From the NCBI GenBank assembly GCA_945863205.1, contig CAMAZK010000010.1, positions 1-44,839 of the forward strand: a stretch of 44,839 nt of DNA, written 5' to 3'. The notes under the pieces were generated by a model that searched no databases, had not been told where the DNA came from, and saw only the letters and a list, made by a program, of their open reading frames with translations. A program made the translations under genes and the position numbers. Below are positions 6,201 through 44,520 of the stretch, in pieces. The stretch is from Akkermansia muciniphila. Lineage in GTDB: Bacteria > Verrucomicrobiota > Verrucomicrobiia > Verrucomicrobiales > Verrucomicrobiaceae. Every line of letters begins with the position of its first letter. Positions within the stretch are counted from its first letter, which is position 1.

Positions 6201-8160
6201 GCCTGTTGACCCCAGTGCCCGCCCCATTGGCGACGACTCCGGTGATCACAGTGTCGCCCGTGCCGCCGAGGGTCAGGGTGCGGGCCGTGGCACTTACGTC
6301 GTTGGTGATGTTCACAGCGCCCAAGGTTAGCTTTTTGCCGCTGGCCAGGGTGTTTCCAAGGGTGCGATCACCGCCGGTGTTGCCGGTGACTGTCCCGTTG
6401 ATGGTGATATCCTGCGCCCCCTGGAACACCCCTGCAACGCTGGTTGTAGTGTTCAAGAGGACGTTGTTGGAGAGCGTGCGCCCGGCATTCAGGGCCTCAA
6501 TCCTACCCGTCGTGAGGGTGAGCGTGCCGCTGGCCAGGCCGCCGTTGCTGGTGCTATTGAGCTGCAGCAGGGTCGGCAAAAGACCGCCGTTGCCGCCATT
6601 GATCGTTGTCGTGCCTGCCGAGCTGTTGGAACCGGTGAGGGTCAAGGTGCGGCCGCTAAGCGTCGTCAGGCCGTTGTAGCTGTTGCTGCCGGAGAGCGTG
6701 AGTGAGCCCGTTCCATTGTAGGTCAGATTGCGCGTGGTGCCGCCACCGTTTGAGATGGTGCCGGCGACCTCGGTCGCGCCCGAGCCGCTGAACACGGTCG
6801 TCATGCTGGCGGTGGCGGCGTTGTTAAGCACGAAGTTGGTAAACTTCAGGGTCTTTCCCGCGGCGATATTGTTGAGGATCATCTGATTGTCGTTCGTCTG
6901 GTTCACCGTGGCATTGCCGGTGAACTCGATGCTGTTGTTCCCGCTGAACGTGTAGCCGGTGCCGCCGCTGGCGCTCGCGAATGACAATTGGTTGGTGATC
7001 GCGTTCGCGCTCGTGAGATCCGTCGAAGCCTGGAACGTGGATGCTCCACTCAGCCATGACATCGTCCCGGTTCCGAGCGCGTTTTGGTGCCCCAAGATCA
7101 CCGTGATAGCACTCGCTGACCCGATGCTCACCGCTCCGGTCACATTGGCCCCGGCCGCTTCCTTGATCCAGATCGTGCCTGCGTTGCTGCCGTCCCTGAG
7201 CTCTACAGCCCTACCCGAGATGTTAGCGTCGAGCTTTCGCAGCGTCAACCTCCCCCCGGTAACGCTGATAGAGGCAGCATTATTTATGGAGAAGACCCCT
7301 GTCGTTTCGCCGACCCCAGTGGTCCATCTAAAGGTGTTTTGAGTTAAGTTGATGTTATTAGCGAAGGTGACCGCCGCGCCGCTGGTATTGCCCGCCGACC
7401 CGTTGGACCAGGTTAATGTGCCCGTGCCGAGGGCGTTGTTGTTATTGATGTAAAGCACGCCGCTGTGGGCAGCCGTAGCGTTTATACCGCCATTAAACGT
7501 GTTGTTGCCGGAGAGGAGCCACGTGCCGCTGGTGTTTCTGACCAAGCCGAACGTTGTCGCTGAGCCATTGGAGATGTTGCCGGTGACGGTGTTGATGCCC
7601 GTGTTCGTGCCGCCCAAGGTCAGCGTCACCGTGTTGGTGGTCGTCCCGCCGGAAATCGCGCCGCCGAAGTTCAGGGTGTTGGTCGCACTGGTGTTGTTGT
7701 TGGCAAAGGTGTAACTACCCGCTGAGGTCGCGTTAAGCGGCGCCAGCACAATCGGAGCGTTGATGGAAATGGCTTTTCCCGTGCCCGTGAGGCCGGACAG
7801 AATCTGAATCGTGCCGCCATTCGAGAGGGTCAGCTTATTGCCACCCGTGGCACCAATGGCGAAGCCGCCGGAGGCCGTGCCGGCACTGGTGTCAAAGGAA
7901 ATGCTGGTCACCGTCTGGTCGGCCACGGCATTTGCGACCGAGGTGAGGGCCGTGTTAAAAAGGGCCGTGCCCGACGCGGCAGGCTTGCTCCCAGTTGACC
8001 AATTGGTGCCGGTGTTCCAGTCGCCGCCGCTCGTGCCGGTCCAGATGACCTGCGCGGCCGCGGGCCGCGGCAGGCCGAGTAAGATAGCGCTCAGCCCGAG
8101 GGACCCCGCGATGCATGTAGCGAGCGGGCGGATGGAATATCGGCGTCGGTTGGATTTCAT
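3238..8160 (-). CDS. giant PATR beta-strand repeat protein with PEP-CTERM anchor
   Basis: A 1,640-aa exported protein. Residues 1-36 form a signal peptide (MKSNRRRYSIRPL, then a hydrophobic core ending PAAAQ). The mature start VIWTGTSGGDWNTGTNWS is the usual opening of autotransporter-associated beta-strand proteins. The body is Ser/Thr/Gly/Asn-rich with repeats of the form 'GxGTLTLGGTxTYTGxTTVNxGTLVL' (clear examples near residues 920-960, 1310-1350 and 1408-1450). The last 25 residues form a PEP-CTERM sorting signal: IPEPSRALLLLLGSAGL followed by TRRRRKC. Exosortase should cleave and anchor or release the protein at the cell surface, but no exosortase gene is in this window. It probably forms a long beta-helical surface fibre. 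The gene follows repeat R1 and lies downstream of the TIGR03790 gene; the HTH/ParB genes follow almost immediately. Confidence 0.93.
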   Translation of the reverse strand: MKSNRRRYSIRPLATCIAGSLGLSAILLGLPRPAAAQVIWTGTSGGDWNTGTNWSTGSKPAASGTALFNTALTSVANAVADQTVTSISFDTSAGTASGGFAIGATGGNKLTLSNGGTIQILSGLTGTGKAISINAPIVLAPLNATSAGSYTFANNNTSATNTLNFGGAISGGTTTNTVTLTLGGTNTGINTVTGNISNGSATTFGLVRNTSGTWLLSGNNTFNGGINATAAHSGVLYINNNNALGTGTLTWSNGSAGNTSGAAVTFANNINLTQNTFRWTTGVGETTGVFSINNAASISVTGGRLTLRKLDANISGRAVELRDGSNAGTIWIKEAAGANVTGAVSIGSASAITVILGHQNALGTGTMSWLSGASTFQASTDLTSANAITNQLSFASASGGTGYTFSGNNSIEFTGNATVNQTNDNQMILNNIAAGKTLKFTNFVLNNAATASMTTVFSGSGATEVAGTISNGGGTTRNLTYNGTGSLTLSGSNSYNGLTTLSGRTLTLTGSNSSAGTTTINGGNGGLLPTLLQLNSTSNGGLASGTLTLTTGRIEALNAGRTLSNNVLLNTTTSVAGVFQGAQDITINGTVTGNTGGDRTLGNTLASGKKLTLGAVNITNDVSATARTLTLGGTGDTVITGVVANGAGTGVNRLTIWGGNVTLTQANTYTGATTLSAGTLVLDFSAAGAPTNNIINSGNSLVMSAGGLTLKGAGGAATNSQSVVMTNATGLSRIVVNNNGSTGTTTLALTSTGLGSRGANGATMNIDLSQGLGGNANANGNAITTTATAATLGWATVTDASGTGFARYNGTNVVRLTGQTTLLATSNASPTDFITSPGGTSTTGSPYLSLTAATPAYNTLTIDTSSATGANFLDLNGRTVTLSNRGVLLTGSNDFTIQGTGQLGAANSEVIVQQMGSGNLTINSAIGSGSTTLTKSGPGTLTLGGTQTYTGFTTVNQGTLVLNADISTAGNMAINEGTMRLGASDRISNSNAMTMKSGGTLDLNGFNETITSLAMDAGATINGGNSSTLTLSGATPITLNSGAGTGVTSVINANLNFSAATATLNPRQNAYGAATTLEINGAISGASTAILGSGSNAGAATLRLSGTTANTFTGSFGVQFGANGLVEFNKTAGVDAIGTGGINLSTANVSANYKWLASNQINDSAPIIMEGGTLNLNGFNETVASFTSGVTGGTGVSFINSSDGTLTLAGTTGNVLSLNNSLSNTSKTLDMNLALSGSGGNISFTSNASTNRTIQIGGTTPGARTFDLGSVVRTIDVADGAQAVDALITSQITGTGGFNKTGAGVLQLTAANTFSGDTKVSAGTLILGNNTQPLQNSALDTSGAGVVNITGLNALTLGGLKGSTNLTSVITTGYVGSLYSLTLNPGTGVTNTYSGVISDGAELSLTKTGLGTQVLSGTNTYSGTTTISNGALQIGSAGVGKTGTGAVTAQTGGTILGTGVVQGTSFTAQSGSTVQAGDGTAQSNYGTLTFTPASGSGSFDFQSGSSAVLGLNPGGTGDLLSFDGLSNGTLLFNGNLSVTAPGYNPVGVDTFNLLDWANLSTPTFHSRFSAGSYSGYLLGNGDDNLGFDLPDISTSGYGWDISAFITAGTISTVNLIPEPSRALLLLLGSAGLVTRRRRKC

Positions 8161-8306
8161 GGTATAGGGTTAGTTTTCGTATTGGGTTGGCTATCTCCGC
8201 GGAACTGAAAAGGAAGCCGATGTGGAGACGATGGCCCTTTTCTGAAGTGACTCGGGCGCACAAAAGGTTACGGACTTTTTTATTGTCCTGAATGAATGGC
8301 CGTTCG
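8127..8306 (-). repeat. cassette upstream repeat, copy R1 (truncated)
   Basis: Matches copy R3 from the first codons of the downstream gene (shared peptide MKSNxRRxSIxPL) through the 49-bp invariant block at 8228-8276 to GGCCGTTCG at about 8305. There it stops at the 3' end of the TIGR03790 gene. It fills nearly the whole gap between that gene and the PATR gene. Confidence 0.85.
8248..8276 (-). promoter_or_regulatory. putative ECF-type promoter in R1
   Basis: Read on the minus strand: AAAAAGTCCGTAACCTTTT with GTAAC at 8271-8267, then GAGTCA at 8253-8248 after a 13-nt gap. GTAAC resembles an ECF -35 core; the -10 assignment is a guess. Transcription would begin about 80 nt before the PATR start codon. 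The same block occurs in R2 and R3. Confidence 0.45.
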
Positions 8307-13804: not shown

Positions 13805-13934
13805 ACGATGGCCCTTTTCTGAAGTGACTCGGGCGCACAAAAGGTTACGGACTTTTTAATTGTACTGAAGGAATGGCCGTTCGGGACGGGCTGGAATCCG
13901 ATGCGTTCCCCGTGTCGAGCCGAAAGTGCCCATC
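13805..13934 (-). repeat. cassette upstream repeat, copy R2
   Basis: Shares the invariant block (13805-13853) with R1 and R3 and continues for about 80 bp of further similarity to R3 (GGGACGGGCTG, CGAGCCGAA, GTGCCCATC). It lacks the gene-proximal half present in R1 and R3: similarity stops at ACGATGGCCC, 21 bp before the TIGR03790 start codon at 13784. Confidence 0.85.
13825..13853 (-). promoter_or_regulatory. putative ECF-type promoter in R2
   Basis: Identical block to those in R1 and R3: AAAAAGTCCGTAACCTTTT on the minus strand (GTAAC at 13848-13844) and GAGTCA at 13830-13825. It would give a leader of about 30-60 nt before the TIGR03790 gene, depending on the start codon used. Confidence 0.45.
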
Positions 13935-14069: not shown

Positions 14070-14645
14070 TCACGGCCGGAAAGATCTGACATTGCCGTTG
14101 AGCGGGTCGATTTGAATGGTGATGTAGTTCGGCGGAAGCGTGGTGTTCGTGGCCTCTCGATCCCTGACGAGCGTGGCATACCATCGCGACGAAGGGGGCA
14201 GATCCGTCGATCCATCCGGGCGGAACTTGAAGCTGTTGTAGTCGCGGGATGAGGAATCTATGCCCGGACCATTGGTGAGCAGAGTCGAGTAGCTCGTCCC
14301 GTTCATCGTGGCGGTGGACAGGCTGGTGCCGTTGGAAAAATAGGTTAGTTCGGCAAGTTGATTAGTGATGCCGAAATCTGTGATCTGGTAGAGGGCATAG
14401 GCGCAGTAACTCGCCGAAATGCCATCGCTGGGCATAACCTTGTAAAGGCGAAATTCCACGGGGGTGGACTTCGCGAGGGCGAGTTGGCGCGCAAGCCGCA
14501 GGCCGCCGGAAAGGGACTCGGAAGCCGATGTGAGTCGCTGTCCATCCGCAATCCCATTCCAGGCGGGCACAGCGATGGCGATCAATAGGCCGATGATCGA
14601 GATCACGACTAGAAGCTCCACTAGGCTGAAGGCGTTTCTTTTCAT
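14070..14645 (-). CDS. Verru_Chthon cassette protein D (GspH-like pseudopilin)
   Basis: A 191-aa protein with a prepilin leader: MKRNA, then FSLVELLVVISIIGLLIAIA. Cleavage is expected between A5 and F6, leaving N-methyl-Phe and Glu at +5. The next segment, LSGGLRLARQLALAKSTPVEFRL, is the pattern of GspH/FimT-type minor pseudopilins. The C-terminal part (SRWYATLVRDREA, NYITIQIDPLNGNVRSFRP) is a beta-rich globular head. It matches the TIGR02596 concept (cassette protein D). The gene begins 6 bp after cassette C and is the last of the four-gene unit. It is probably an inner-membrane-inserted subunit of a pseudopilus-like assembly. Confidence 0.85.
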   Translation of the reverse strand: MKRNAFSLVELLVVISIIGLLIAIAVPAWNGIADGQRLTSASESLSGGLRLARQLALAKSTPVEFRLYKVMPSDGISASYCAYALYQITDFGITNQLAELTYFSNGTSLSTATMNGTSYSTLLTNGPGIDSSSRDYNSFKFRPDGSTDLPPSSRWYATLVRDREATNTTLPPNYITIQIDPLNGNVRSFRP

Positions 14646-14651
14646 AGGGTC

Positions 14652-15767
14652 TCAATCGTTGCTCCACTTGGCTCCGCGAATAGCAACCACGGTCCGGTAA
14701 ACGCGGTAGTTCACTCTTTGAGCCGTGAGATTCCTTTCCAGTGTTGCGAGGTCGGCATCCACATCCGAAGAGGAGGAAAGGGTTTGGAAAAGATCGCCCT
14801 GCCCGAAATCCGGCGGGTTGGCACCGTTGGCTGCCGCCAGTCTTTGCGCGGAGCTTTCATCGATGACGACCATGATCGCTTCGACCAGCGGCGGCAGTTG
14901 ATGGAGTGTGGTGCCGCTTATTGGCCCTCCGGACGCCGGGGTTGCCGAGAAGGCTTTTGCGGAGCGGGAATCGTAATGGTAGTCGGTCTTTACCAGCGCC
15001 GCACCGCTAGGATCCTCCGTCGAGGAGAGTTTGGGGATGATCACCAGGGCGATCACGTTTTCAGCCAGCACGCTCACAGGCCTGTCTTTTTCGGCCACGG
15101 TAGCGGTAAATCCAAGCGGGTCGGTGAACCACTTCGTGCGCGCGGTCGTCGCATCCGGGGTGTATATCTCCAGGTTCTCCGAGGGCTGTTGCATCTGCAT
15201 CAGCCGATAGCGGTAGCGAAGGGGAATATTCGTCAGGCCAGCCAGAAAATCCGGTCGCAGGTTCTCATCGCTTCCAAATTCCAGGAAGAATCCCACGGCG
15301 TTGAGGATGTTGGTAAGCGGATCGAGCGTGGAGTTCGATGAAAAGCCTGCGGGGACCTGGAAAAATAGGGCACCCGTCGGGCGCTTCAAGGCATCGTTGG
15401 CTGCTCCAAATAAATCCTTTGTCGGACCCGAGCGGAAGTGCAACTCCGACTGCCGCCCATACTTCGCCGGCGTGCCGCTGTATGCGCTGTCGTTGGCGGG
15501 TTTCCCGTCGCTGTCGTAATAGTCCCAGTAAGTGTTCAGGGTCGCCTGGGAGATCGTCCGCGTGAGCGCCTCGAATCCCGCCCGGGCACCCTGATAGCTT
15601 TCCACTTGGTCACGCGTTCTTCTGGTCATCGAAGACACGGTCTGCACCATGGTCGAAACTAAAACGCCCAAAAGAAGCAGCAGCGTCATCGAGACCAACA
15701 GCTCGATGAGCGTGAATGCTCTGTGGCCTTTCCTGGCCAAGCGGCGGCGGCTTTGCTTATCGTCCAT
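14652..15767 (-). CDS. Verru_Chthon cassette protein C (GspJ-like pseudopilin)
   Basis: A 371-aa protein with a prepilin leader MDDKQSRRRLARKGHRA before FTLIELLVSMTLLLLLGVLV, keeping Glu at +5. GspJ-like features follow: a long amphipathic helix (TRRTRDQVESYQGARAGFEA, LTRTISQATLNTYWDYY) and a large beta-rich head. It matches the TIGR02599 concept. The start at 15767 overlaps cassette B by 11 bp; a longer start at 15788 would add MSCSFLT before the basic leader and is less likely. At 371 aa it is much longer than typical GspJ (about 200 aa). It ends 6 bp before cassette D. Confidence 0.85.
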   Translation of the reverse strand: MDDKQSRRRLARKGHRAFTLIELLVSMTLLLLLGVLVSTMVQTVSSMTRRTRDQVESYQGARAGFEALTRTISQATLNTYWDYYDSDGKPANDSAYSGTPAKYGRQSELHFRSGPTKDLFGAANDALKRPTGALFFQVPAGFSSNSTLDPLTNILNAVGFFLEFGSDENLRPDFLAGLTNIPLRYRYRLMQMQQPSENLEIYTPDATTARTKWFTDPLGFTATVAEKDRPVSVLAENVIALVIIPKLSSTEDPSGAALVKTDYHYDSRSAKAFSATPASGGPISGTTLHQLPPLVEAIMVVIDESSAQRLAAANGANPPDFGQGDLFQTLSSSSDVDADLATLERNLTAQRVNYRVYRTVVAIRGAKWSND

Positions 15768-16194
15768 TGTCAGGAATGAACACGACATGGGTTGAGGCCT
15801 CGCTGTTCGTATTGGGGAGGCGATGGATGGCGATCGTCACCGACGCCAACCCGCGGAGAGTGACCGGAGATGTCGAGGAGGGAACGCCCACCAGACCGGT
15901 GCTTAATACCGCCTCGTAGATGGCGTCGGTTGAACTCAACATCCCGCTATTATCAAATTGGTATTTCGTTCCGTTAAGGGTGCCCAACAAAGAGAAATCT
16001 GTTTGCTGTGCGGTGTTGGCGACTGATTTGATAATTTCGGCCCGCAGGGAATCATTTCTCGCATCCCGAATCGTGTTGAGTCCGATCGGCATCAGGCCCA
16101 CCAGCCCCACCAGCACAAAGCTCATCAGGCCGAGAGCCACGACGACTTCGACAAGGCTGAATCCCCTGCGCGCTGTGGAAGGATACGTTTTCAT
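15757..16194 (-). CDS. Verru_Chthon cassette protein B (GspI-like pseudopilin)
   Basis: A 145-aa protein with a prepilin leader MKTYPSTARRG before FSLVEVVVALGLMSFVLVGL. Cleavage is expected after Gly11, with Glu at +5. The length and the helical segment after the membrane stretch (LNTIRDARNDSLRAEIIKSV) fit GspI-type minor pseudopilins and the TIGR02598 concept. Its ATG overlaps the TGA of cassette A as ATGA, and its end overlaps cassette C by 11 bp, so A, B and C are probably translated in a coupled way. Confidence 0.85.
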   Translation of the reverse strand: MKTYPSTARRGFSLVEVVVALGLMSFVLVGLVGLMPIGLNTIRDARNDSLRAEIIKSVANTAQQTDFSLLGTLNGTKYQFDNSGMLSSTDAIYEAVLSTGLVGVPSSTSPVTLRGLASVTIAIHRLPNTNSEASTHVVFIPDNGR

Positions 16195-19100
16195 GGATTG
16201 AACTGCTTTGTGTTGATCACCCGGAACTTGTAGGGCCCGAGCGTTGAGGTTGAGTCGGTGATATCAAATGCCGAGGCCTTTGGATCCAGAAACCGCTCGA
16301 TGATGAATGACCCGCGATACCCGGATGTGACGGTGTCCTTCGTCTGGTCAAATGTCTGCGGATCCGCCCCCCGTCGCTTCTTCAGTTTTTGAACCCGCAG
16401 ATGCACTGTGTAGGTGTTCGATTTCGTCGTCACGCGCGGATAGATGGTGGTGTAGGGGCGCTCCCGGAGATTGTCAGCCGTGCCAGCCCCACCCAAACTG
16501 GTGTTTGCCCAGAAGCCATCCACGTAAGTCTGGACCTGGGAGGCGGTGGCATTTGCGGACAGCGCCGTCTGGAACGGGTTCTTTGAAGCCGGCACGAGCC
16601 CTTTGGCGTTCACATTTTCCGGCTTTGGCACCAGGGGCATCTCGCAGATCTGGGAGGCGGTCAGGAAGGGGGTGTTGTCCGTGAAGCGCTTCTCGAAGAG
16701 CTTCATCGTCGCGTCGCGGTCGATGTTGTAGCGGTAGTTGAAGGTAGCGTCGCTGGAATTCGTCCCGTCCGGATTCAGTGTGATTAAAAAGGCGTTGCTG
16801 GTCGGCACCGCGGTGATCTTTTCCGGATAGAGCACGCCGCGAAGCGCGGTCGAGCGCTTGATGTAGCTGAAGGGGGCGATCTGCCAGTTCAGGTTCACCT
16901 TGCCCGCCGTCGAGAAGGGCTCGCTGATGGCGTAAGGCTCCACCACCGGCATCTGGAAGAGATCCAGGATGAGGTGGTCCGGTGGGTTGACGGCGCCGGG
17001 ATGGGCGGGAGAGTTGGGCCGGAAAAGCAGGGTCTGCCATGGCATCCCGCGCTTGACCCCCACGGGGAGGGAACCGAACATCCCTGGCGAGGGCATCATG
17101 CGATTGGGGGTAAACGCGTTGTCCAGGGAAGCGATCATCGCACTGACTTGGAAGTAAGGAAGTGAGGGCCTGCCGCTGCCATCACGGAAGGACGCCGCGC
17201 CGTCGCTCGGTTTATTGATGAAGGCGCCCGCTTCTGGGAAACCTGCGCCGAAAACGTCGACCCGGGCGACCCCCGCATCCCAGTCGCCGGGGGTGCCATC
17301 GCTCCGGGTCGCGGCAGTCATGGTGCTTGGCAGCCCGAATAAGATCTGGGCGGCGCTTCCTGAGGCGGCGCTGACTCCGGCAACCAAGCTGCCATTCGTG
17401 GCCTGCGGATGGCCCCACAGGCTGTGTGCCTGATTCCTGGCGGAATTATCATATCCCGCACACTTTTGAAAATAGCTGGCCGGGACATTCTGAAGCCCGG
17501 CCACCAGTCGCGCATCGCCATAGGGAACCGCAGAGGCGTTGAGTTCGATGCCCCGAACCGTGTCGAGATTGTTTGGCATCAGGCACATCGCCAGATTGAT
17601 CCCAAGATTTGCGGGGGAAGGTAAAGTATATCTCATGGGGCTGTTTTCACCCCCCGCTCCAAGAGCCACGCGATTATCCCACCGCGTGGTAACTGTCGCG
17701 GTGGTCCCGCTGACTGCCACTTGCCTGCAATCTATTAAGCGAAAAGGGCTTGCTGGCGTCAGCGTAACCGGTGCCCATAGCGGCATGGGAGCGGTGAAAT
17801 TCGGGAACTCCATTTTCACATTCTGCACCACCTGGTTGTCCACAAGGATGTCGATATCCAACGTGCCGCCTGTGAAGTTCAAAGTGTTTCCTGAGACCGG
17901 GATGTTGCTCTGGCTGAAAAAAGGATAAGAGTTGGAATTGGCTCCGGTGGGCGTGATGCCGCCACGCTGAACGGCGTTATAAGTTCGGGTGCTGGGATTC
18001 ACGTTACCCCCGCCAAATAACAGGTTGTCCCAGAGCGCGAGCCCTGATCCTTCCACCGACCGATGGGGAAGGCCCAGGACGCGGTTGATGGCACCATCGG
18101 TCATGTTGGCGGAGGCACCATTGACCTTGAAAGAAGACAAACCGCTATTAACACGGATATCGTAGGTGTGGGTGATCGTCAGCGGCCCCGCAGAGGGGTT
18201 GGCAACCGAAAATAGCAGAACCCCTCGGATTTGTCCGGCGGGTTGCGAATTGTTCGCAGTCCAACTGGCGAGCTGACTTCGAGATAAAGAGTGTGGGCTT
18301 GGAAAAGGTTGATAAGTCATCTTTGCAAAATCAGCGGGAGTTTTTCCCGGATTCGTGTCGGTGGCAAAAAACCCAAGGGTCGCTCCGACAATCGTGGGGA
18401 ATCGGCCGAACCCCCTTGTGGTGCCGCTGGCTGCGGGAGCGCCGATCACTGCGGGGACGACCTGTCCGCCATATGCAGACGCGACATAGTAGGCCAAGGG
18501 CAAATTCCAGACTGCGGGGTCGCGTGGCAACGGGAGTGATTTCAGGCATCCACTGGTATTGCCGGCTCCGACCAAGCGATTGGCCTCATTCCAATAAAAG
18601 AAACGCCCGGTATATGGCTTCGCATTGGCATCGCTGCAGTCGAAGAGGTTGCTGGAGCGGATGTAGTCGTAGATCTCCGTGAGGATCTGATCACTGTCGG
18701 TCCCGAATTTGGAGGCGAGGCTGTCCCCGAAACCGGGGTAGGGTTTGGCCATCAATTCCTTTAGGTAACTGTAGAGGGTGGAATTGTTTGCGGTGAAATC
18801 CAGGGTGGCACTCTGCGAGCCGGTATTGGAGGCTCCTGTAAAGGAGCTGTTATCCACCAATCCGATTTTCATCGGATCGAAAGCCGATCGCTGGAAAATA
18901 TACTCGCGTCCACCGACCTTGGAGCAGAAGGCGATGGTTTTATCGAACACGGTGCGGTCGGTCGCTTTGGAGTCCACGGGCCAAATCGTGACTCGGGGTG
19001 TATTGAAAGCAGTGACTTCAGGGGCGCGGCTGTTTGCCGTGAGGAAGAACCTCGCAAGGCTGAGGTTTACGGGCGTCAGGCTCATCGCGGGTGTTGCGGG

Positions 19101-20249: not shown

Positions 20250-20299
20250 GGTAAAGGGCCCCATTTTCGGAGCCTCATCGGCCTTCCGGCAGGAGAGCG

Positions 20300-20529
20300 G
20301 AAGGATGGAAAATCGGCGTAGGTTGGATTTCATGGCGTGGGATTAGTTTTCGCAGTGGGCTGGCTATCTCTGCGGAACTAGAAAGGAAGCCGACGTGGAG
20401 ACGATGGCCCTTTTCTGAAGTGACTCGGGCGCACAAAAGGTTACGGACTTTTAATTGTCCTGAATGAATGGCCGCTCGGGACGGGCTGAAATCCGGTGCA
20501 GTCCGCGTATCGAGCCGAACGTGCCCATC
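20300..20529 (-). repeat. cassette upstream repeat, copy R3 (fullest copy)
   Basis: The only copy holding both halves. The gene-proximal half matches R1 (including the MKSNxRRxSIxPL codons and GGCTATCTC), the invariant block lies at 20401-20449, and the distal half matches R2 (CGGGACGGGCTG to GTGCCCATC). R1 and R2 could each be partial duplicates of this unit. The remaining 20530-20678 contains no recognised feature. Confidence 0.85.
20421..20449 (-). promoter_or_regulatory. putative ECF-type promoter in R3 for cassette A-D
   Basis: Minus-strand AAAAGTCCGTAACCTTTT (GTAAC at 20444-20440) and GAGTCA at 20426-20421. It faces cassette A, and the divergent sigma-factor gene lies on the other side of the same intergenic region. 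Confidence 0.45.
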
Positions 20530-20678
20530 TCACCGCTGTGGTGTCCCCTGCTCAGTGAAGTGAAGCAGGTGAAGTGCAGGTTGAAAAGTTTCCCGCACCC
20601 GGGGCGCGGTGGTTGTCATCGCGGCCTCATTGCGTCGGTGCCGGGTTGGGAGATCGCGACTTCTTTTTCGATCCCGGA

Positions 20679-20695
20679 AAAAGTTGGTAACTTTT
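20679..20695 (+). promoter_or_regulatory. palindrome / putative autoregulated promoter of the ECF sigma gene
   Basis: AAAAGTT-GGT-AACTTTT is a perfect 7-bp inverted repeat 25 bp before the sigma start codon. Preceded by one more A, it reads AAAAAGTTGGTAACTTTT. This differs from the R1/R2 block AAAAAGTCCGTAACCTTTT only at two bases and one extra C. It is therefore a candidate -35 element recognised by the sigma factor itself, or an operator. Confidence 0.45.
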
Positions 20696-20720
20696 CGCCA
20701 CCTTTTAACACTACTTCCTG

Positions 20721-21285: not shown

Positions 21286-22776
21286 ATGAACAAGCAACGA
21301 TTGGAAGAACTCCTCCTCGTTTGGGAGGAAGATCGGCTGACGACGGAAGAGTCGGCCGAGCTCAAGCAACTCCTCACCGCACACCCTGAAGCCCGGCAGC
21401 GGCTCGTGGAGACCGGTGTGCTCAAGAGCGTGGCCGAAGCACGGGTGCATGCGTGGGAAAAATTCGGGACGGGCACGGTTACAAAACACCGCAATGTGAT
21501 CGAATCGCCGCGTCTCGGATGGTTCCGCTGGATACCTTTGGCCGCAGCCGCGTGCGCCGCCATTTTCGCGGGCGTGATGTGGAAGATGGACCCTTCTCCT
21601 TCGAGGGAAGTGGCGCACGGAGCCAGCTACGTGGCGGAGCTCGCGGGCATGGAAGCGGCCGTGTGGGCCGAGGGCTCGCCCCCATTGCATGAGGGGGAAA
21701 ACTTGAAGCCATTGACACTCGAGCTGGTTTCCGGGCGGATCGAGTTGCACTTCATGGAAGGTGCCAGCGTGGCGGTTCAGGGTCCGGCCAAGATCGAACT
21801 GATCAGCGAGAAGCGGATGAGGCTTTTCAGCGGTCGACTCTCGGCGGATGTCCCGACCCGCGCCATTGGCTTCACAGTGGACACACCGGTGTCGGAGGTG
21901 CGCGACCTCGGCACGCGCTTCGGCGTGGCTGTGGCGGATGGCGGCGCGACGGAAACCCACGTTTTCGAGGGTGAAGTGGATGTCATGCCGAATGCCGCCG
22001 TAGATCGGACTGGCAGTGTCAGGCGGCTACAGACCGACCAAGGACTCGCTTTGGCGAAGGGCCAAAAGACGCCGATCGAGATCGTGGCCAATCCCGCCGC
22101 GTTCCCGCTGCCGGAGCGGATCGTGCCAGTTCCCTTGCCGTGTGCGGGCTTCGATCTCAAAGCGCTGGGCTGGAACGCAGGCGACGCTTTCCCACCGAAC
22201 AAATACGATGTGTGGGAAGGCGACTACATCACGCGCGTCGGTGCGGAGCGCGGGATCGTGACCAAAGGTGGCACGGGCATGCTGCGTTTCATGGGAGCAA
22301 TGCGGCCAGGCACCCCGCCGGCCAAAGCCGGGGGAGCTTCCGAACTCTACTGCTGGATCGATTTGCGCCCTTATCAGGCGAAGTGGAAGGGGCGGCGCAT
22401 CATTGCGGAGTTTTCCACGTGGTTCAATCGCATTTCATCCCCTGAGAGCAAACTCACCGCGCCCACCGTCATCGCGGCTACCTATGGCCCGGGAATCCAG
22501 CCGGGCATGGCGGCTTGGGATGCGCGGCTCTACCCCAATAATCCAATGCACGCACTTTCCAACTGCGATGCGCAGATCCGCAGCGACGAGGATCCGACCA
22601 CTTGGGAGCAGGCCACAGCGCGGGTGACCATTGGCCCCGAGGCCGAATTGTTGCTGCTCTCGGTCCGGGTGCGTTCAGACGTGGAGAATCCTGCGGACCG
22701 ACGCTTCGACGATGTTTATGCCGATGAACCGACGCTCACTTTCCGACTCGGCAACGCCATCCCGAATCCCCGCTAA
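21286..22776 (+). CDS. FecR-domain membrane protein, probable anti-sigma factor
   Basis: A 496-aa protein. The N-terminal cytoplasmic part (about 1-80; LEELLLVWEEDRLTTEESAE) is like anti-sigma N-termini that start with a short helical bundle. A single membrane helix follows at about 82-99 (WIPLAAAACAAIFAGVMW). The FecR domain spans about 145-235 (LELVSGRIELHF, GASVAVQGPAKIEL, FTVDTPVSEVRDLGTRFGVA). The rest (about 285-496) is an extracytoplasmic beta-sandwich-like domain with no family I recognise. It should sense an external signal and control the sigma factor encoded 1 bp upstream, as FecI/FecR pairs do. No TonB receptor is present in the window, unlike classical fec systems. Confidence 0.88.
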   Translation: MNKQRLEELLLVWEEDRLTTEESAELKQLLTAHPEARQRLVETGVLKSVAEARVHAWEKFGTGTVTKHRNVIESPRLGWFRWIPLAAAACAAIFAGVMWKMDPSPSREVAHGASYVAELAGMEAAVWAEGSPPLHEGENLKPLTLELVSGRIELHFMEGASVAVQGPAKIELISEKRMRLFSGRLSADVPTRAIGFTVDTPVSEVRDLGTRFGVAVADGGATETHVFEGEVDVMPNAAVDRTGSVRRLQTDQGLALAKGQKTPIEIVANPAAFPLPERIVPVPLPCAGFDLKALGWNAGDAFPPNKYDVWEGDYITRVGAERGIVTKGGTGMLRFMGAMRPGTPPAKAGGASELYCWIDLRPYQAKWKGRRIIAEFSTWFNRISSPESKLTAPTVIAATYGPGIQPGMAAWDARLYPNNPMHALSNCDAQIRSDEDPTTWEQATARVTIGPEAELLLLSVRVRSDVENPADRRFDDVYADEPTLTFRLGNAIPNPR

Positions 22777-22790
22777 CGCATCACTTTTTC

Positions 22791-23528
22791 ATGAAACTCT
22801 CTCTTCTCATCATCACCGCATTTTTGTCCCTGACGCTGGCACCCACCTGGAGTGCCGAACCCGCAAACCCGCCGCCCGTCCCGCTCAAGTCCGACTCAAA
22901 GGAGTGGCGATTTTATCCCGCTGCCCGCGAAGCCGGAAAAGCCCGCGTCCTGCTCATCGGCGACTCGATCATGAACGCCTACCGCCACCGCGTGTCGGCG
23001 GCGCTCAAGAACCGGGCTACAGTGGATGTGTGGCTCACGCCCATCACCATCAAATCGCCGGAATTGTATGATGACCTCCGGACGGTTTTGGAGCAGGGCC
23101 CGTATGACGTGGTGCATTTCAACATCGGCCTCCACGAGTGGATGAAGGGCTACATCCCCGAGGGTCAATACGAGCCGCTGCTCCGTGCTTACGTGAAAAC
23201 GATTCAAGCCCACGCCGGCCACGCAACACTCATCTGGGCGAGCACAACGCAGATGACCGTGAAGGGGCAGCCCACGGCGCTCGACCCCGACAACAACCCC
23301 AGGATCGTCGAGCGCAACGGCATCGCCGCCCGCGTCATGCAGGAAGTCGGGATCACCGTGAATGATCTCTACACTCTCATGGGCGACAAACTCGCGCTCG
23401 GCAAGGGCGACAAATACCACTGGACCCCAGAAGGCTCCGCAGTCCACGCCGACGCGGTGACTGCGAGCATCGGCGCGGCTTTGGAGAAGCGGAGTCCCGC
23501 CTCAACGACCATTTCCGCTCCGCGATGA
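22791..23528 (+). CDS. secreted SGNH/GDSL-type hydrolase
   Basis: A 245-aa protein with signal peptide MKLSLLIITAFLSLTLAPTWSA. Block I: VLLIGDSIMNAYRHRVSAAL with nucleophile Ser in GDSI. A middle block HFNIGLHEWM carries the Asn/Gly position. Block V: DKYHWTPEGSAVHADAV with the Asp-x-x-His dyad. All expected SGNH positions are visible. Relatives act as esterases or acetyl hydrolases on polysaccharides; the substrate here is unknown. It lies 14 bp after the FecR gene and probably belongs to the sigma operon. Confidence 0.85.
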   Translation: MKLSLLIITAFLSLTLAPTWSAEPANPPPVPLKSDSKEWRFYPAAREAGKARVLLIGDSIMNAYRHRVSAALKNRATVDVWLTPITIKSPELYDDLRTVLEQGPYDVVHFNIGLHEWMKGYIPEGQYEPLLRAYVKTIQAHAGHATLIWASTTQMTVKGQPTALDPDNNPRIVERNGIAARVMQEVGITVNDLYTLMGDKLALGKGDKYHWTPEGSAVHADAVTASIGAALEKRSPASTTISAPR

Positions 23529-23557
23529 AATGTTTCCAAACAATCGCCCTGACTCTC

Positions 23558-23625
23558 GGTAGGCTCCCATGCGCTTGGGCGGGACGACACGCGGGGAGCG
23601 GAAGGGAAATTAGGGCTGTCCTACC
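23558..23625. repeat. inverted-repeat element between SGNH and DUF1592 genes
   Basis: The 107-bp gap 23529-23635 holds GGTAGG at 23558-23563 and CCTACC at 23620-23625, with a GC-rich middle (GGGACGACACGCGGGGAGCG). The frame through this gap is open but gives a poor protein (GRLPCAWAGRHAGSGR), so I treat it as an intergenic element, not part of the next gene. Confidence 0.4.
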
Positions 23626-23635
23626 CCGATATAGA

Positions 23636-26395
23636 ATGAAATACGGCCCATCTTCCTTGATCGCTCTCGCGCTGCTGGCGTCTCTCGCGAATCTTTCCGC
23701 CCGCACATTTCACAATGCCAAAGGCCAGGCCATCGATGCCGAGGTGGTCAAGGTGGAAGGCGCGAGCGTGGTCATCAAACGCAGCGACGGGCAGAGCTTC
23801 ACCGTCCCCGTCTCCACGCTCAGCGCGGATGACCAGGCATTCCTCAAGGACTGGAAGCCGTCCTCGCCATCAGTCCCACCAGCGCCCGCGACAGCCTCAT
23901 CCTTAGCTTCCGTCAAGGCGATTGCCGCGTTTGCCGGGAAGCACTGTATCGAGTGCCATGACAAGGACGAGCAGAAGGGCGGGTTCGACATGGAGGATCT
24001 TTTGAAGAGCCCCACCGTCGAAAAGAACCCCGCCGCGTGGCACAGCGTGCTGGAGCGGATTGTCTCCCGCGACATGCCGCCCAAGAAACGCAAGGAACGG
24101 CCGACCGAGGTGGAGTATCAGCAGAGCGAGAACTGGCTGCGTTCCCAGATCGAGGCGCATGAGGCTTTCGCAGCCACCCAGCAGCCCCGACCGATGCGCC
24201 GGCTCAACAGCGAGGAATACAATCTCAGCATCCAGGAGGTGTTCGGAATCCCGGGAATCAAGCCGGCGACAGACTTTCCACCGGACGATGCGTTCGAAGG
24301 CTTCACGAATATCGGTGAGGCGCTCAATCTCTCCACGGTGCTGGTGGAGCAATACCTCGCGGCGGGACGAAAGGTGGCCGATTTAGCGGTCGTGGAGGGA
24401 CAGCAACCGGCATCGAAAACACGGGTTTACACGCATCCCTCGACCGAGCGGGGCAAGACCAAGCCAGCCAACTATGCGGGCGATCTCAGAGGGCACGATC
24501 CCGGTGGTGCGGTCAGCAAGGAGGGGCGCCTCCTTGGTGATCACTTGTTCGTCGAAGCTGGCAATACGCCCGCAGGGACCTACACGGTGCGTCTGCATGC
24601 GACGCCGAAGAACCTCGCGGGCCGCCCCACTTACACCCCGAACTTCCAATACCTCGTGAACGACGTGCGGGCGCATCAAGGTGACGTCCCGATCCGCGAG
24701 GGCGTGCCGATGAAGCAGGAGTTCCAAGTCACGGAACTGAGCGGCCGACTGAAGGTTGATATCCGCTGGGTAAACGGCTTTCCCGACAATAACAACTTGC
24801 GCGCTGAAGGTTTGCGTCTGCCGGAATGGACGGACAAAGAAGCGCACAACCGAAAAGAGGTCTGGAACTATCTCCGCTATGTATGGGAGCCGCAGGTCAA
24901 AGCAGACCCCGCCACGCCGTATCCGTTTCCCTACTTCGAAGATTACTATCTCGAAATAGAAGGCCCGCTCTTTCCCGAGGGCTGGCCGTTGTCGCGATTC
25001 CACCGCGAAAATGCCGAGGCCATCGCAGCAAAGGACGCCAGACGGGTCGCGCAATGGCTCCTGCCCAAGCTTTACCGCCGGCCTGTAACGGCTGATGAAG
25101 TCGCTGATTTCGCCACCTTTGTGGAGCAGTCGGAATCAAGTCTCGCCGACGCCAAACCACAGCCGCTGCCCGTGGAGCGCCGCTTTCCGGAGGCCTTACG
25201 TCTTGGGATCCAGCAGTCGCTCATTTCGCCGCATTTCCTCTTCATCGTGGAACCAGGCCCCATGGGCCGCCCGCTCACCGATCCCGAACTCGCCACGCGT
25301 CTGGCCTATTTCCTTTGGAGCGCGCCCCCGGATGAGGAACTCGCGAAGCTTGCTGCGGATGGCAAGCTCCGCCCTGCTCTCGGTGCGCAAACCAAACGGA
25401 TGATCGCCGACCCGCGCAGTGCGGTATTTGTGGACCGCTTCATTCGTGAATGGCTCGGGCTCGCGAAACTTTCCACGATCATGCCCGAGATGTCGCTCTT
25501 CAAGCGCTTCGATAATCAGGCGATGCTCGCACAGTCCATGGCCGCAGAGCCACGCGCCATGCTTGGTCATCTGCTCCGGGAAAACGCATCGCTCTACGAT
25601 CTGCTCGATGCGAACTACACCTTTCTCAATGATCGCCTCGCCGACTTTTACCACCTGCCTTCGCTGTGGTCGATGGCCCCCATGAAGCGCGAAGGTTTTG
25701 CTCCTGTCTCCGGTGGCGACATGCAAAAAGTGACGCTTCCCGACAAGCGCCGCGGCGGCCTCGTGACGATGGCGGGAGTGCTCGCGCTGACGAGCGAGAA
25801 CACGCGAACCTCAGCTGTGCGACGCGGTATTTGGATCCTGGAGAAAATCTTTAACCGCACGCCGCCGCCGCCACCACCGAACGTCAATGGCACCCTGCCC
25901 CCGACGAGCGAAGGCAACACAGCGGCCGAGAAGATCAAGCTCCACCGCAATGCTCCCAACTGCGCAGGATGCCATGAGCGCATCGACCCGCTCGGCGTCG
26001 CACTGGAGAACTTCGACACCATCGGCGAATGGCGCGACACGGAGCCGCCATGGATCGATCCCGCCAATCCCAATTCCACGCTCGAAGCCGTCCGCGCGAA
26101 GCTGAAACTCGGCAAATATGATCCGCTGCCGACTTACCCCATTGACGTGTCCTTCAGCATGGGCGGCGTCGAAGGACAAGGGGTGGAAGCGCTCAAGCAA
26201 TTCCTCGTCGCCAACAAGGATCGCTTCGCACGCGGCTTCATCGAAAAACTCGCCACTTACGCGACGGGTCGCAAGCTGCTGCTCACCGACGATGCGGAGA
26301 TCAAGAAACTCCAGAACGCCGCAATGAAGGATGACTTCCGTTTTCAAACCCTGCTGCTTGCACTCGTGCAGAGCCGCATTTTCCAAACCCACTGA
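23636..26395 (+). CDS. DUF1592-family planctomycete-type cytochrome-like protein
   Basis: A 919-aa exported protein from ATG 23636 (signal peptide MKYGPSSLIALALLASLANLSA). Order: SHD1-like domain (about 22-80, ARTFHNAKGQAIDAEVVKVE); a c-type heme motif CIECHDK (CxxCH, near residue 102); DUF1587 (RRLNSEEYNLSIQEVFGI); DUF1595/DUF1592 (WLLPKLYRRPVTADEVADFA; QSLISPHFLFIVEPG; RLAYFLWSAPPDEEL); DUF1588 with a second CxxCH (PNCAGCHERIDPLG); DUF1585 (GRKLLLTDDAEIKKL). These proteins are expanded in Planctomycetes and Verrucomicrobia and sit in the periplasm; function is unproven, and polysaccharide breakdown or electron transfer has been suggested. A start at 23525 would overlap the previous stop but would add a non-signal extension. 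It is co-directional with DUF1552 6 bp downstream. Confidence 0.9.
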   Translation: MKYGPSSLIALALLASLANLSARTFHNAKGQAIDAEVVKVEGASVVIKRSDGQSFTVPVSTLSADDQAFLKDWKPSSPSVPPAPATASSLASVKAIAAFAGKHCIECHDKDEQKGGFDMEDLLKSPTVEKNPAAWHSVLERIVSRDMPPKKRKERPTEVEYQQSENWLRSQIEAHEAFAATQQPRPMRRLNSEEYNLSIQEVFGIPGIKPATDFPPDDAFEGFTNIGEALNLSTVLVEQYLAAGRKVADLAVVEGQQPASKTRVYTHPSTERGKTKPANYAGDLRGHDPGGAVSKEGRLLGDHLFVEAGNTPAGTYTVRLHATPKNLAGRPTYTPNFQYLVNDVRAHQGDVPIREGVPMKQEFQVTELSGRLKVDIRWVNGFPDNNNLRAEGLRLPEWTDKEAHNRKEVWNYLRYVWEPQVKADPATPYPFPYFEDYYLEIEGPLFPEGWPLSRFHRENAEAIAAKDARRVAQWLLPKLYRRPVTADEVADFATFVEQSESSLADAKPQPLPVERRFPEALRLGIQQSLISPHFLFIVEPGPMGRPLTDPELATRLAYFLWSAPPDEELAKLAADGKLRPALGAQTKRMIADPRSAVFVDRFIREWLGLAKLSTIMPEMSLFKRFDNQAMLAQSMAAEPRAMLGHLLRENASLYDLLDANYTFLNDRLADFYHLPSLWSMAPMKREGFAPVSGGDMQKVTLPDKRRGGLVTMAGVLALTSENTRTSAVRRGIWILEKIFNRTPPPPPPNVNGTLPPTSEGNTAAEKIKLHRNAPNCAGCHERIDPLGVALENFDTIGEWRDTEPPWIDPANPNSTLEAVRAKLKLGKYDPLPTYPIDVSFSMGGVEGQGVEALKQFLVANKDRFARGFIEKLATYATGRKLLLTDDAEIKKLQNAAMKDDFRFQTLLLALVQSRIFQTH

Positions 26396-26401
26396 CTCGC
26401 T

Positions 26402-27790
26402 ATGAAATCACCCATCACCCGCCGTCACGCCCTGCGCAGCATCGGCTCGCTCATCTCACTGCCATTTCTGGAATCAATGCTGCCCTCGGGCCTACGGGCT
26501 GCCGCATCCGTCAAGCCACCCGTGCGCCTCGTCTGGCTTTATGCGGGCAGCGGCATGTTCATGCCCGCTTATAAGCCTGCCGCCACCGGGCGCGCGTGGG
26601 ACAACTCCAAAGAAATCGCCGCCAGTGCCGCGATCACTTCTCCATTGGCTGAGGGAATCAAACCGCTCTCCACACTCGATCCGCTGCTGCCCTTCAAGGA
26701 CGATGTTAGCATCCTCAGCGGATTGCTCCACGCAGGTGCCTTCACACGGGGCACGGTGGTGAGACATGGGCAGGATCCGATGTGTCATCTCACCGCTGTC
26801 GATCTGTTCCGCATCCCCGGCGTTGCCAGCCGCAACGGCGTCTCCATCGATCAAGTCGCAGCGCGCCACCTCGGTCAGCACACACGCATTCCTTCGCTGG
26901 CCCTGTCGCATGATCGCAACATGACGATCAACTACACTGACACCGGATCGCCCATCCCCGCAGACTGGAATCCTACCGAGGTCTTTAACCGCCTTTTCAC
27001 CGGCCCCAGCGCCGCAGACAAGGCGAGCGCGGAGACACGTTTCCTCCAAAAGAAAAGCGTCCTCGACAGCGTGCTAGCGCAGACCGCGAAACTAAAATCC
27101 AGCGTCGGTGCCGGTGACCGAGAGCGGCTCGACGAATACCTCACGCGACTCCGCGAGATCGAAGTCCGCGCTGAGCAATCGCGTAAATGGGATGCCGTGG
27201 AACTGCCACCCATCCCCGCGGGTGCCCAGCTACCGAAGGAAATCTCCGGTGCCGGCCAGAGCCTGAGCCTCGGCAACACACAAGCCGCAGCAGGAAACTT
27301 CGGCCCGAGGATCCGACTCATCCTGGACATGCTTGTGCTCGCCTTGCAGACGGACCAGACCCGGGTCGCCACGGCGATTCTCGGACACATGGGCGACGTT
27401 TACAAAGAAGAGAAACTCAACGACTCCTACCACGCCTACACACACAAAATCAGTGAAGCGGGCGGGCAGCTCGGCATGGCAAAGCTGGACCAGTTCCGCA
27501 TTGGCCACGTTGCTTACCTTTTGGAAAAGATGAAAGCCATCAAGGAAGTGGACGGCTCAACCCTGCTCGATAACTCGGTCGTCCACTTCGGCGGCGGCAT
27601 GGGCACCTGGCACGAATCCACCGACCTCGCCAACCTCATCGCCGGCCACGGCGGCGGACGTCTCAAACTCGGCGAGCACGTCCAGTTTAAACAAGAACCG
27701 CTGGCCAATCTCTATGTGATGATGCTCCAAGCCGCCGGCGTGCCTGTGAAGACATTCGTGGACAGCAAAGGCCCGCTGGGGATTGCGTGA
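26402..27790 (+). CDS. DUF1552-family exported protein
   Basis: A 462-aa protein with a Tat-like leader (SPITRRHALRSIGSLISLPF) and the DUF1552 pattern: PVRLVWLYAGSGMFMPAYKP, LPFKDDVSILSGLLHAG, GVSIDQVAARHLGQ, VHFGGGMGTWHESTDL. DUF1552 proteins regularly follow DUF1592-type proteins, as here (6 bp apart), and are thought to act together in the periplasm. No activity is established. The TGA at 27788 is in frame with the truncated LysR copy that follows, so one frame runs on with a single stop between them. Confidence 0.9.
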   Translation: MKSPITRRHALRSIGSLISLPFLESMLPSGLRAAASVKPPVRLVWLYAGSGMFMPAYKPAATGRAWDNSKEIAASAAITSPLAEGIKPLSTLDPLLPFKDDVSILSGLLHAGAFTRGTVVRHGQDPMCHLTAVDLFRIPGVASRNGVSIDQVAARHLGQHTRIPSLALSHDRNMTINYTDTGSPIPADWNPTEVFNRLFTGPSAADKASAETRFLQKKSVLDSVLAQTAKLKSSVGAGDRERLDEYLTRLREIEVRAEQSRKWDAVELPPIPAGAQLPKEISGAGQSLSLGNTQAAAGNFGPRIRLILDMLVLALQTDQTRVATAILGHMGDVYKEEKLNDSYHAYTHKISEAGGQLGMAKLDQFRIGHVAYLLEKMKAIKEVDGSTLLDNSVVHFGGGMGTWHESTDLANLIAGHGGGRLKLGEHVQFKQEPLANLYVMMLQAAGVPVKTFVDSKGPLGIA

Positions 27791-27853
27791 TGTCGTGAGA
27801 CGTTCATTCGCGGTGCGGGCATTGGAGCCTACGGCGCTGAAGATTCACATGCT

Positions 27854-28504
27854 CGCCGCATCACCGTGGCCACCAAGGCGAGCCTCTTATTGCACGAACT
27901 TCAAAAGCCGCTCGAGATCTACCGCAAACGCTTTCCCGAGGTGGAGTTGTCCTTCATCGACCGTCCGTCCGTGATGGCGCGGAAATACCTCGAAGATGGT
28001 GAGGCCGATGTCGCCATCATCGGCCAGATCGATGCGCCGAAACAGCCGCGCATCGAAGTCACGCCCGTGACCGCTTATCCCTTCGTGCTCGTGTGTCCGG
28101 TCGGGCATCCATTGCTCGAAGCGAAGCCCCTGAAGCTCACCGGCCTCATCAAGCAGCCACTTGTTTTGCCCGGCAAAGGCGCCAATTCACGCCGCCACAT
28201 TCAAGATGTGTTTGAAGCGGCCGCGTTGTGGCAAAAGGCCAACATCGCTCTCACCGCGAGCACCTTCGATATCGTCGTAGGCTACGTGCGCATGGGCTTC
28301 GGCATCAGCATCACCTCCGTGAGCCCGATGATTCTCAAAGAAGCCGCCCAAGGCCACAGCAGCTATCGCGGTGTCGCCTTCCGCGATCTTTCGAAGCTCT
28401 TCGGCCGCGAGGAGGTCGTGGTGCTCCATCGCAAAGCCAAAGTCGAGCTTCCACACCATGTGGCGTTTCGCGAGATCGTGGCGGGCGCGCTGCGCAATGA
28501 CTGA
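27854..28504 (+). pseudogene. 5'-truncated LysR copy (effector domain only)
   Basis: Homology to the LysR gene at 730-1680 begins at CGCCGCATCA (27854), precisely at the start of the effector-binding domain, and continues to the end with no frameshift. It encodes about 212 codons from GTG 27866 (ATKASLLLHELQKPLEIYRK to AGALRND). The DNA-binding wHTH is absent, and the sequence upstream (27791-27853) is unrelated to LysR, so it cannot act as a normal regulator. About 20 amino-acid differences from the full copy, mostly conservative, suggest recent decay, or retention as a ligand-binding or dominant-negative protein. It is convergent with the MBL-fold gene, 9 bp away. Confidence 0.8.
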
Positions 28505-37472: not shown

Positions 37473-37514
37473 CTGGGGGACTCCGTTCCCCAGAACGACG
37501 GGGACAGAGTCCCC
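37473..37514. terminator. two adjacent hairpins after glgX
   Basis: Hairpin 1: CTGGGG (37473-37478) with CCCCAG (37488-37493). Hairpin 2: GGGGAC-AGA-GTCCCC (37500-37514). The second belongs to the 39-bp repeat at 37497-37535. No T-tract follows. They probably end or stabilise the glgX transcript. The remainder of 37361-37472 is low-information intergenic DNA with no recognisable gene. Confidence 0.4.
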
Positions 37515-37535
37515 TTCACCTTGAGCTTTGGCGCT
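37497..37535 (+). repeat. 39-bp hairpin repeat, copy 1
   Basis: Begins GACGGGGACAGAG and ends with a segment close to TTGAGCTTTGGCGCT. It is nearly identical to the reverse complement of 44482-44520, about 7 kb away on the far side of the polysaccharide operon. Confidence 0.75.
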
Positions 37536-44481: not shown

Positions 44482-44520
44482 AGCGCAAAGACTCAAGGTG
44501 AAGGGGACTCTGTCCCCGTC
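44482..44520 (-). repeat. 39-bp hairpin repeat, copy 2, with terminator-like stem
   Basis: Reverse complement of the repeat at 37497-37535 with only a few differences. It contains GGGGAC-TCT-GTCCCC (44503-44517) and separates the convergent O-antigen-ligase-like gene and the right-edge gene, so it may act as a bidirectional terminator. Confidence 0.75.

Follow-up and report, generated by a model that had tools for sequence, protein, structure and literature searches.

What controls the genes that surround an ECF sigma factor gene in Akkermansia muciniphila, and why does a sequence found in front of that gene recur in front of its neighbours? The window analysed here, the whole 44,839-nt stretch, is contig C10 of a 4.95-Mb genome (420 contigs, 79% complete). 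The sigma gene, whose product has its best NCBIfam match in TIGR02989 (Sig-70_gvs1; 96.4 bits, below the cut-off of 124.55), is followed at close spacing, through position 27790, by genes for a FecR-domain protein, a GDSL-type hydrolase, a DUF1592-type protein and a DUF1552 protein. Divergent from this presumed operon, on the minus strand, lie the four genes of a Verru_Chthon cassette, arranged A-B-C-D in one operon-like run with every product above its curated cut-off, and two genes for giant proteins (Table 1). We consider it probable, from the comparisons made here, that an autoregulated ECF sigma factor with a FecR-type anti-sigma factor drives its own operon, the cassette, the two giant genes and possibly one further operon on contig C67.

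Two copies of a LysR-type regulator gene, one at 730-1680 and a truncated one (the 3' part) at 27851-28494, share 89% identity over 644 nt in direct orientation. They bracket a 26-kb block comprising the giant genes, the cassette and the sigma operon, and may represent a segmental duplication or an island boundary. Elsewhere in the window, a 39-nt inverted repeat (92%; 37497-37535 and 44482-44520) with the palindromic core GGGGACAGAGTCCCC flanks a 7-kb stretch that encodes a MurJ/MatE-type flippase, a glycosyltransferase and an asparagine-synthase-like protein. No Rfam family was found in the window.

Table 1. Genes, candidate promoters and copied blocks of the sigma factor locus (positions in the window)
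Feature	Position	Strand	Remarks
Giant protein 1, 1640 aa	3238..8160	-	autotransporter-type beta-strand repeats, PEP-CTERM tail
Copied block in R1	8122..8306	-	promoter, leader and first codons common with R3; 90.3% over 185 columns
R1 candidate promoter, 28-mer GTAACCTTTTGTGCGCCCGAGTCACTTC	8244..8271	-	before giant protein 1 gene
AAAAAGTYSGTAAC match, R1	8267..8280	-	
Giant protein 2, 1822 aa	8316..13784	-	TIGR03790, Calx-beta and PKD domains
Copied block in R2	13805..13934	-	upstream side and promoter common with R3; 91.5% over 130 columns
R2 candidate promoter, 28-mer identical to R1/R3	13821..13848	-	before giant protein 2 gene
AAAAAGTYSGTAAC match, R2	13844..13857	-	
Verru_Chthon cassette protein D, pseudopilin-like	14070..14645	-	TIGR02596, 128 bits (cut-off 70)
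Verru_Chthon cassette protein C, pseudopilin-like	14652..15788	-	TIGR02599, 305 bits (cut-off 256.5)
Verru_Chthon cassette protein B, pseudopilin-like	15757..16194	-	TIGR02598, 63.6 bits (cut-off 51.4)
Verru_Chthon cassette protein A, 1380 aa	16191..20333	-	TIGR02600, 871 bits (cut-off 332)
Copied block in R3	20295..20529	-	both flanks present
R3 candidate promoter, GTAACCTTTTGTGCGCCCGAGTCACTTC	20417..20444	-	before cassette; 21.0 bits, exact match to ortholog pattern
AAAAAGTYSGTAAC match, R3	20440..20453	-	one mismatch
AAAAAGTYSGTAAC match, sigma gene	20678..20691	+	
Sigma candidate promoter	20687..20714	+	-35 GTAACTTTT 20687-20695; -10 ACACTAC 20708-20714
ECF sigma factor, 187 aa	20721..21284	+	Sigma70_r2 25.5 bits (cut-off 24), Sigma70_r4_2 38.2 bits (cut-off 25.7)
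Predicted membrane anti-sigma factor	21286..22776	+	FecR domain PF04773, 31.7 bits (cut-off 24)
GDSL-type hydrolase	22791..23528	+	third gene of presumed sigma operon
PSCyt1/PSD3/PSD4/PSCyt3/PSD2 protein (DUF1592 type)	23525..26395	+	
DUF1552 (HXXSHH) protein	26402..27790	+	

The initial annotation had placed the shared motif before the ECF sigma gene, and it does stand there, as AAAAAGTTGGTAACTTTT at 20678-20695 on the plus strand, one base ahead of the start at 20679 that had been given. With up to two mismatches, the pattern AAAAAGTYSGTAAC has four matches in the window, a number reached in none of 100 shuffled windows (mean 0.33), and the motif is real rather than a product of chance. The same reading had lined up the sigma site with R1 and R2 by way of two base changes and one extra C, and had regarded the poor likeness of the -10 regions as its weak point. 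That alignment was wrong. We rejected the gapped version because the ungapped one fits both elements, in the orthologs as well. The inserted C had displaced the second element by one base and so hidden it; compared without a gap, the -10 regions agree. The ungapped 28-mer of the sigma site, GTAACTTTTCGCCACCTTTTAACACTAC, agrees with R1-R3 at GTAAC, TTT and CACT.C, giving a consensus of GTAACYTTT-N12-WCACTNC in which both ends match. The AAC is separated from the second element by 16 nt in the sigma site and in R1-R3, and the usual spacing of ECF promoters is 16-17 nt. Elsewhere the sigma site differs from the R sequence at several positions, and it has no CTCG inner element. Its second element ends only 6 nt 5' of the ATG, implying that the sigma transcript is probably leaderless.

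ECF promoters are described, in the sections of PMC8103513 that concern us, as having an AAC in the -35 element and a CGT in the -10, the CGT being no longer required by later ECF classifications. The -35 AAC, as GTAAC, is present in the sigma site, in R1-R3 and in all three orthologous promoters described below; at -10 these sites hold TCACT, TCACC or ACACT instead of CGT.

Is this element a property of the sigma gene, or only of this contig? When 239 genomes of the order were searched, orthologs of the window sigma factor (59-69% identity) came to light in three other genomes from two families, the next sigma match falling to 38%. A scan of named-genome contigs recovered two of the three together with a near-copy of one (L073, nearly identical to G069, so that only three orthologs are independent), and the nearest relatives in that scan are uncultured Verrucomicrobia and Spartobacteria, which together with the Verru_Chthon and PSCyt/PSD families present mark the window's genome as a verrucomicrobial bin. 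The gene is thinly spread: it occurs in 3 of 68 genomes of the family, our own included, and in a draw of 387 genomes from the phylum (E<=1e-45) our own genome alone had it. The initial annotation had suggested comparing orthologous upstream regions, and there a two-part element precedes all three ortholog sigma genes, 42-49 nt before the start, in a form resembling GTAACCTTT-N7-TCTCG-N2-TCAC: GTAACCTTTCCCCGTCTCGCATCACCTT in G145, GTAACCTTTATGCCTCTCGCATCACTAG in G069 and GTAACCTTTTGCAGTCTCGTGTCACTAC in G068. This element is the best common block of the three upstream regions, with 18 of its 28 columns identical, whereas 200 simulations gave 10.8 on average and never more than 14. The neighbours of the orthologs are DUF1592/DUF1552 genes in G069; in G068 they are sulfatase and DUF1501 genes together with one of PSCyt/PSD1 type.

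The conservation of the element bears on one other explanation of the site, by which 20686-20702 would be part of a minus-strand transcription terminator. We regard this as barely credible: one weak hairpin-plus-T match does occur at this place (three G-C pairs among six), but such matches arise at chance level (0.7 per shuffle), and the element is kept before the ortholog genes despite differing flanking DNA.

A matrix built from the three ortholog promoters alone was then run over both strands of the window. Its top four positions are R1, R2 and R3, at 21.0 bits each, and the sigma site at 18.8 bits; the fifth scores 16.6 and the sixth 11.0. In 60 simulated windows the maximum scores averaged 12.2 bits and the largest was 19.55, so that the R sites outscore all of them, whereas at least one of these maxima lies above the sigma site, which is thus not decisive by itself across a whole window. 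Within stretches of 427 nt, the size of the gap region, its score was reached in none of 3000 simulations. Of the 18 invariant ortholog columns, R3 matches 16 (0/5000 simulations) and the sigma site 13 (P=0.006); judged by matrix score, the R sites are closer to the ortholog sigma promoters than is the window's own sigma site. The earlier proposal of an autoregulated ECF regulon, in which the sigma factor would switch on the pseudopilin and giant-protein operons, thus gains support from the element before the three orthologs and from the top ranking that an ortholog-derived matrix gives to R1-R3 and the sigma site.

The likeness among R1, R2 and R3 is a different matter. The stretch common to R1 and R3 extends into the first 14 codons, whereas that common to R2 and R3 extends further upstream; R3 thus has both flanks, whereas R1 has chiefly the downstream one and R2 chiefly the upstream one. 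The three copies do not differ at all over a 52-nt run that contains the 28-mer, and the lack of change in the 28-nt core between copies is weakly significant (P=0.04, 0.06 and 0.26). The alignments indicate that R1-R3 are copies of one promoter block, and their mutual likeness must therefore be counted as one observation, not three. The block is absent from all other genomes searched. The first 14 residues of cassette protein A resemble the N-terminal signal-peptide region of giant protein 1, a likeness explained by the copied block running into codons; the ancestral start of protein A is likely to be an internal ATG near 20252 rather than that at 20333.

Such recent copies would resemble one another without any functional weight, and R1-R3 might thus be a mere duplicated leader with no shared regulation, the likeness upstream of the sigma gene being due to chance in an A/T-rich spacer. 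The several departures of the sigma site from the R sequence would suit this explanation. We nevertheless judge it highly improbable, since the independent three-genome matrix ranks R1-R3 first and the fit of R3 to the ortholog columns was never reached in the simulations.

How far does the element extend beyond the window? When at most two mismatches are allowed, the pattern GTAACCTTT-N6-CYCG-N2-TCACT matches the 4.95-Mb genome at four sites, namely R1-R3 and position 15399 (plus strand) of contig C67. The reversed pattern used as a control gave no match in this genome and one across four genomes, and a single stray two-mismatch match is for that reason unremarkable in itself. The C67 site, GTAACCCTTGTGTGAACCGTTTCACTCC, was however located irrespective of its context, and its gene context therefore counts as support: it ends 13 nt 5' of the start codon of a DUF1592-type gene (15440-17785), and a DUF1552-type gene comes next, so that the pair found in the sigma operon recurs here at only ~28% identity (types assigned from protein matches to the sigma-operon pair). 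Its score is low, at 12.2 bits, when the ortholog matrix is applied. We regard the C67 operon as a likely candidate member of the regulon. A looser pattern, made to include the C67 and sigma sites, finds exactly these two and R1-R3 in the genome, with one control match.

Across the 239 genomes the six exact sites are those from which the pattern was built, and the nine further sites with one mismatch are no more than background, the reversed-pattern control giving 11. The exception is G116, a sister of G145, where ~1.34 kb with the sigma and anti-sigma genes has been deleted (locus L063, near base 1500) and a remnant of the promoter is left. This remnant reads GTCAC and retains 74.5% identity, compared with 96% for the adjoining gene, which fits a promoter that has fallen out of use, although spacer DNA drifts faster in any case.

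Could R1-R3 instead be served mainly by another ECF sigma factor that shares the -35, all four sites still being ECF promoters? The genome has 25 matches to this sigma family, four of them with an AA(A/C/T).TTTT element upstream. One of the 25, a paralogous sigma gene on contig C23 (4070-4546, minus strand), has the upstream element TTAACCTTTTGCCATGCTGTGGCATTTG, which contains TTAACCTTTTGCC and scores 13.6 bits; its product is a possible cross-talk partner. Scoring was extended to the DNA upstream of 47 sigma genes, 25 of them in this genome and 22 elsewhere. The three training genes and the window's own gene came highest, and none of the other 43, members of the wider sigma family (41 correctly placed, L036 and L041 mis-registered), reached 14 bits, the best being 13.6. 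R1-R3 fit the entire 28-nt ortholog element, including the -10 and the inner CYCG, as no paralog upstream region does, and R3 and the window sigma gene are divergent neighbours. A different principal sigma factor for R1-R3 is thus improbable, and we retain the sigma factor encoded beside them.

The link between sigma factor and cassette does not extend to the cassette family. Verru_Chthon cassettes occur in 63 of the 68 family genomes, and those closest to the window's are only 37-43% identical to it. In the 1.5 kb upstream of 35 other cassettes (less for one on contig C305) the site is absent, with a best score of 10.8 bits; a promoter of this type is likewise lacking before this genome's two further cassettes, on C305 and C12. 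Both of the latter lie directly 3' of reading frames with PEP-CTERM-like tails. The 35 cassettes without a site, and the contrast between 63 of 68 genomes for the cassette and 3 of 68 for the sigma factor, indicate that the link is local to this locus and that the cassette family is not generally run by this sigma factor.

The adjacent gene had been taken to encode a FecR-like membrane protein, the expected anti-sigma factor. The FecR domain is present above its cut-off, in a protein with a predicted N-terminal helical domain and one predicted membrane helix (approximately residues 82-101) beyond which the FecR domain would lie outside. In all four loci the partner gene lies directly 3' of the sigma gene and its N-terminus is conserved, the first ~95 residues of the window protein sharing 39-44% identity with the corresponding part of each ortholog partner, as would be expected of a cognate anti-sigma factor. 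The remainder differs among the loci, and the two ortholog partners examined with Pfam (G069 and G068) have no FecR match where the window protein has its FecR domain. This pattern would suit a protein whose sigma-binding end is conserved while its sensor can be exchanged. Class I anti-sigma factors carry an N-terminal four-helix domain; a structure model of the window protein, with a mean pLDDT of 34, predicts helices at residues 3-14, 20-32 and 34-60 and is of fair confidence no further than about residue 40.

How does this arrangement compare with known systems? Most ECF factors have an anti-sigma partner and about 55% are autoregulated, as stated in part of PMC8103513. The window resembles autoregulated ECF/membrane anti-sigma pairs in its two-domain sigma gene with a membrane partner directly 3', in its AAC -35 and in an own promoter that resembles the target promoters; it differs in a -10 of TCACT rather than CGT, in its Verrucomicrobia-type targets and in a probably leaderless sigma transcript. 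It shares with FecI/FecR an ECF gene followed by one for a FecR-domain membrane protein. FecI-like ECFs, however, are described as not autoregulated (PMC8103513, in the portion cited), and at this locus no TonB-dependent receptor gene lies 3' of the pair, where GDSL, DUF1592 and DUF1552 genes are found instead; the absence of FecR from two ortholog partners is a further difference. A further parallel is offered by the TIGR02989 ECF family of Rhodopirellula and Verrucomicrobium and by the ECF gene beside PSD/PSCyt genes in Rhodopirellula baltica, the common feature being a sigma gene that adjoins planctomycete-specific cytochrome/PSD genes. In R. baltica the ECF factor RB10049 was suggested to regulate the PSD1/PSC2 gene RB10051 (an excerpt of PMC2754498, after Studholme et al.). 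The window sigma factor differs in scoring below the family cut-off and in the addition of a Verru_Chthon cassette and giant proteins. The cassette itself is typical in its four proteins and their order, and stands out in being divergent from an ECF operon and preceded by its candidate promoter, a site that the 35 others lack.

We conclude that this is a well-supported candidate for an autoregulated ECF regulon of ordinary design, as far as sequence comparison can tell, and that the novelty lies in its targets, the cassette and two giant proteins apparently recruited through promoter copying. From the element, its spacing, its conservation before the ortholog sigma genes and its match at R1-R3, all of them directly seen, we infer binding and autoregulation. 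The site at 20687-20714 would be an ECF-type promoter recognised by the sigma factor encoded just downstream. In the absence of a signal the FecR-domain partner would sequester the sigma factor at the membrane, and a signal outside the inner membrane would release it. Free sigma factor would then transcribe its own operon, presumably extending from the sigma and anti-sigma genes through those for the GDSL hydrolase, the DUF1592-type protein and the DUF1552 protein; the four-gene cassette from R3; the two genes for giant proteins, secreted or on the surface, from R1 and R2, all three promoters having probably originated through copying of one block; and possibly the second DUF1592-DUF1552 operon on C67. 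Its own operon and possibly the C67 operon, which had no place in the initial annotation, would thus belong to the regulon as well.

What might such a regulon be for? In part of a study of Verrucomicrobia MAGs, PSCyt/PSD genes of unknown function stand beside sulfatases and are thought to serve carbohydrate use (PMC5615132). Our literature search found no paper naming the Verru_Chthon cassette or its TIGR models. A tentative and rather doubtful possibility is that a sensory ECF promoter, associated elsewhere with gene sets for planctomycete-type cytochromes and sulfatases, spread as a small portable block by being copied onto the cassette and the two giant genes, so that a single extracellular signal would command a surface-assembly cassette as well as a degradation operon, and that the LysR-bracketed 26-kb set moves or duplicates as a unit.

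The block copying points to a way in which an ECF regulon may grow, the promoter itself being duplicated before new genes. Finally, a widespread but functionally uncharacterised cassette would gain a candidate regulator in this sigma factor. With its promoter defined, such a regulator would offer a direct handle: switching it on may reveal what the cassette and the giant proteins build.
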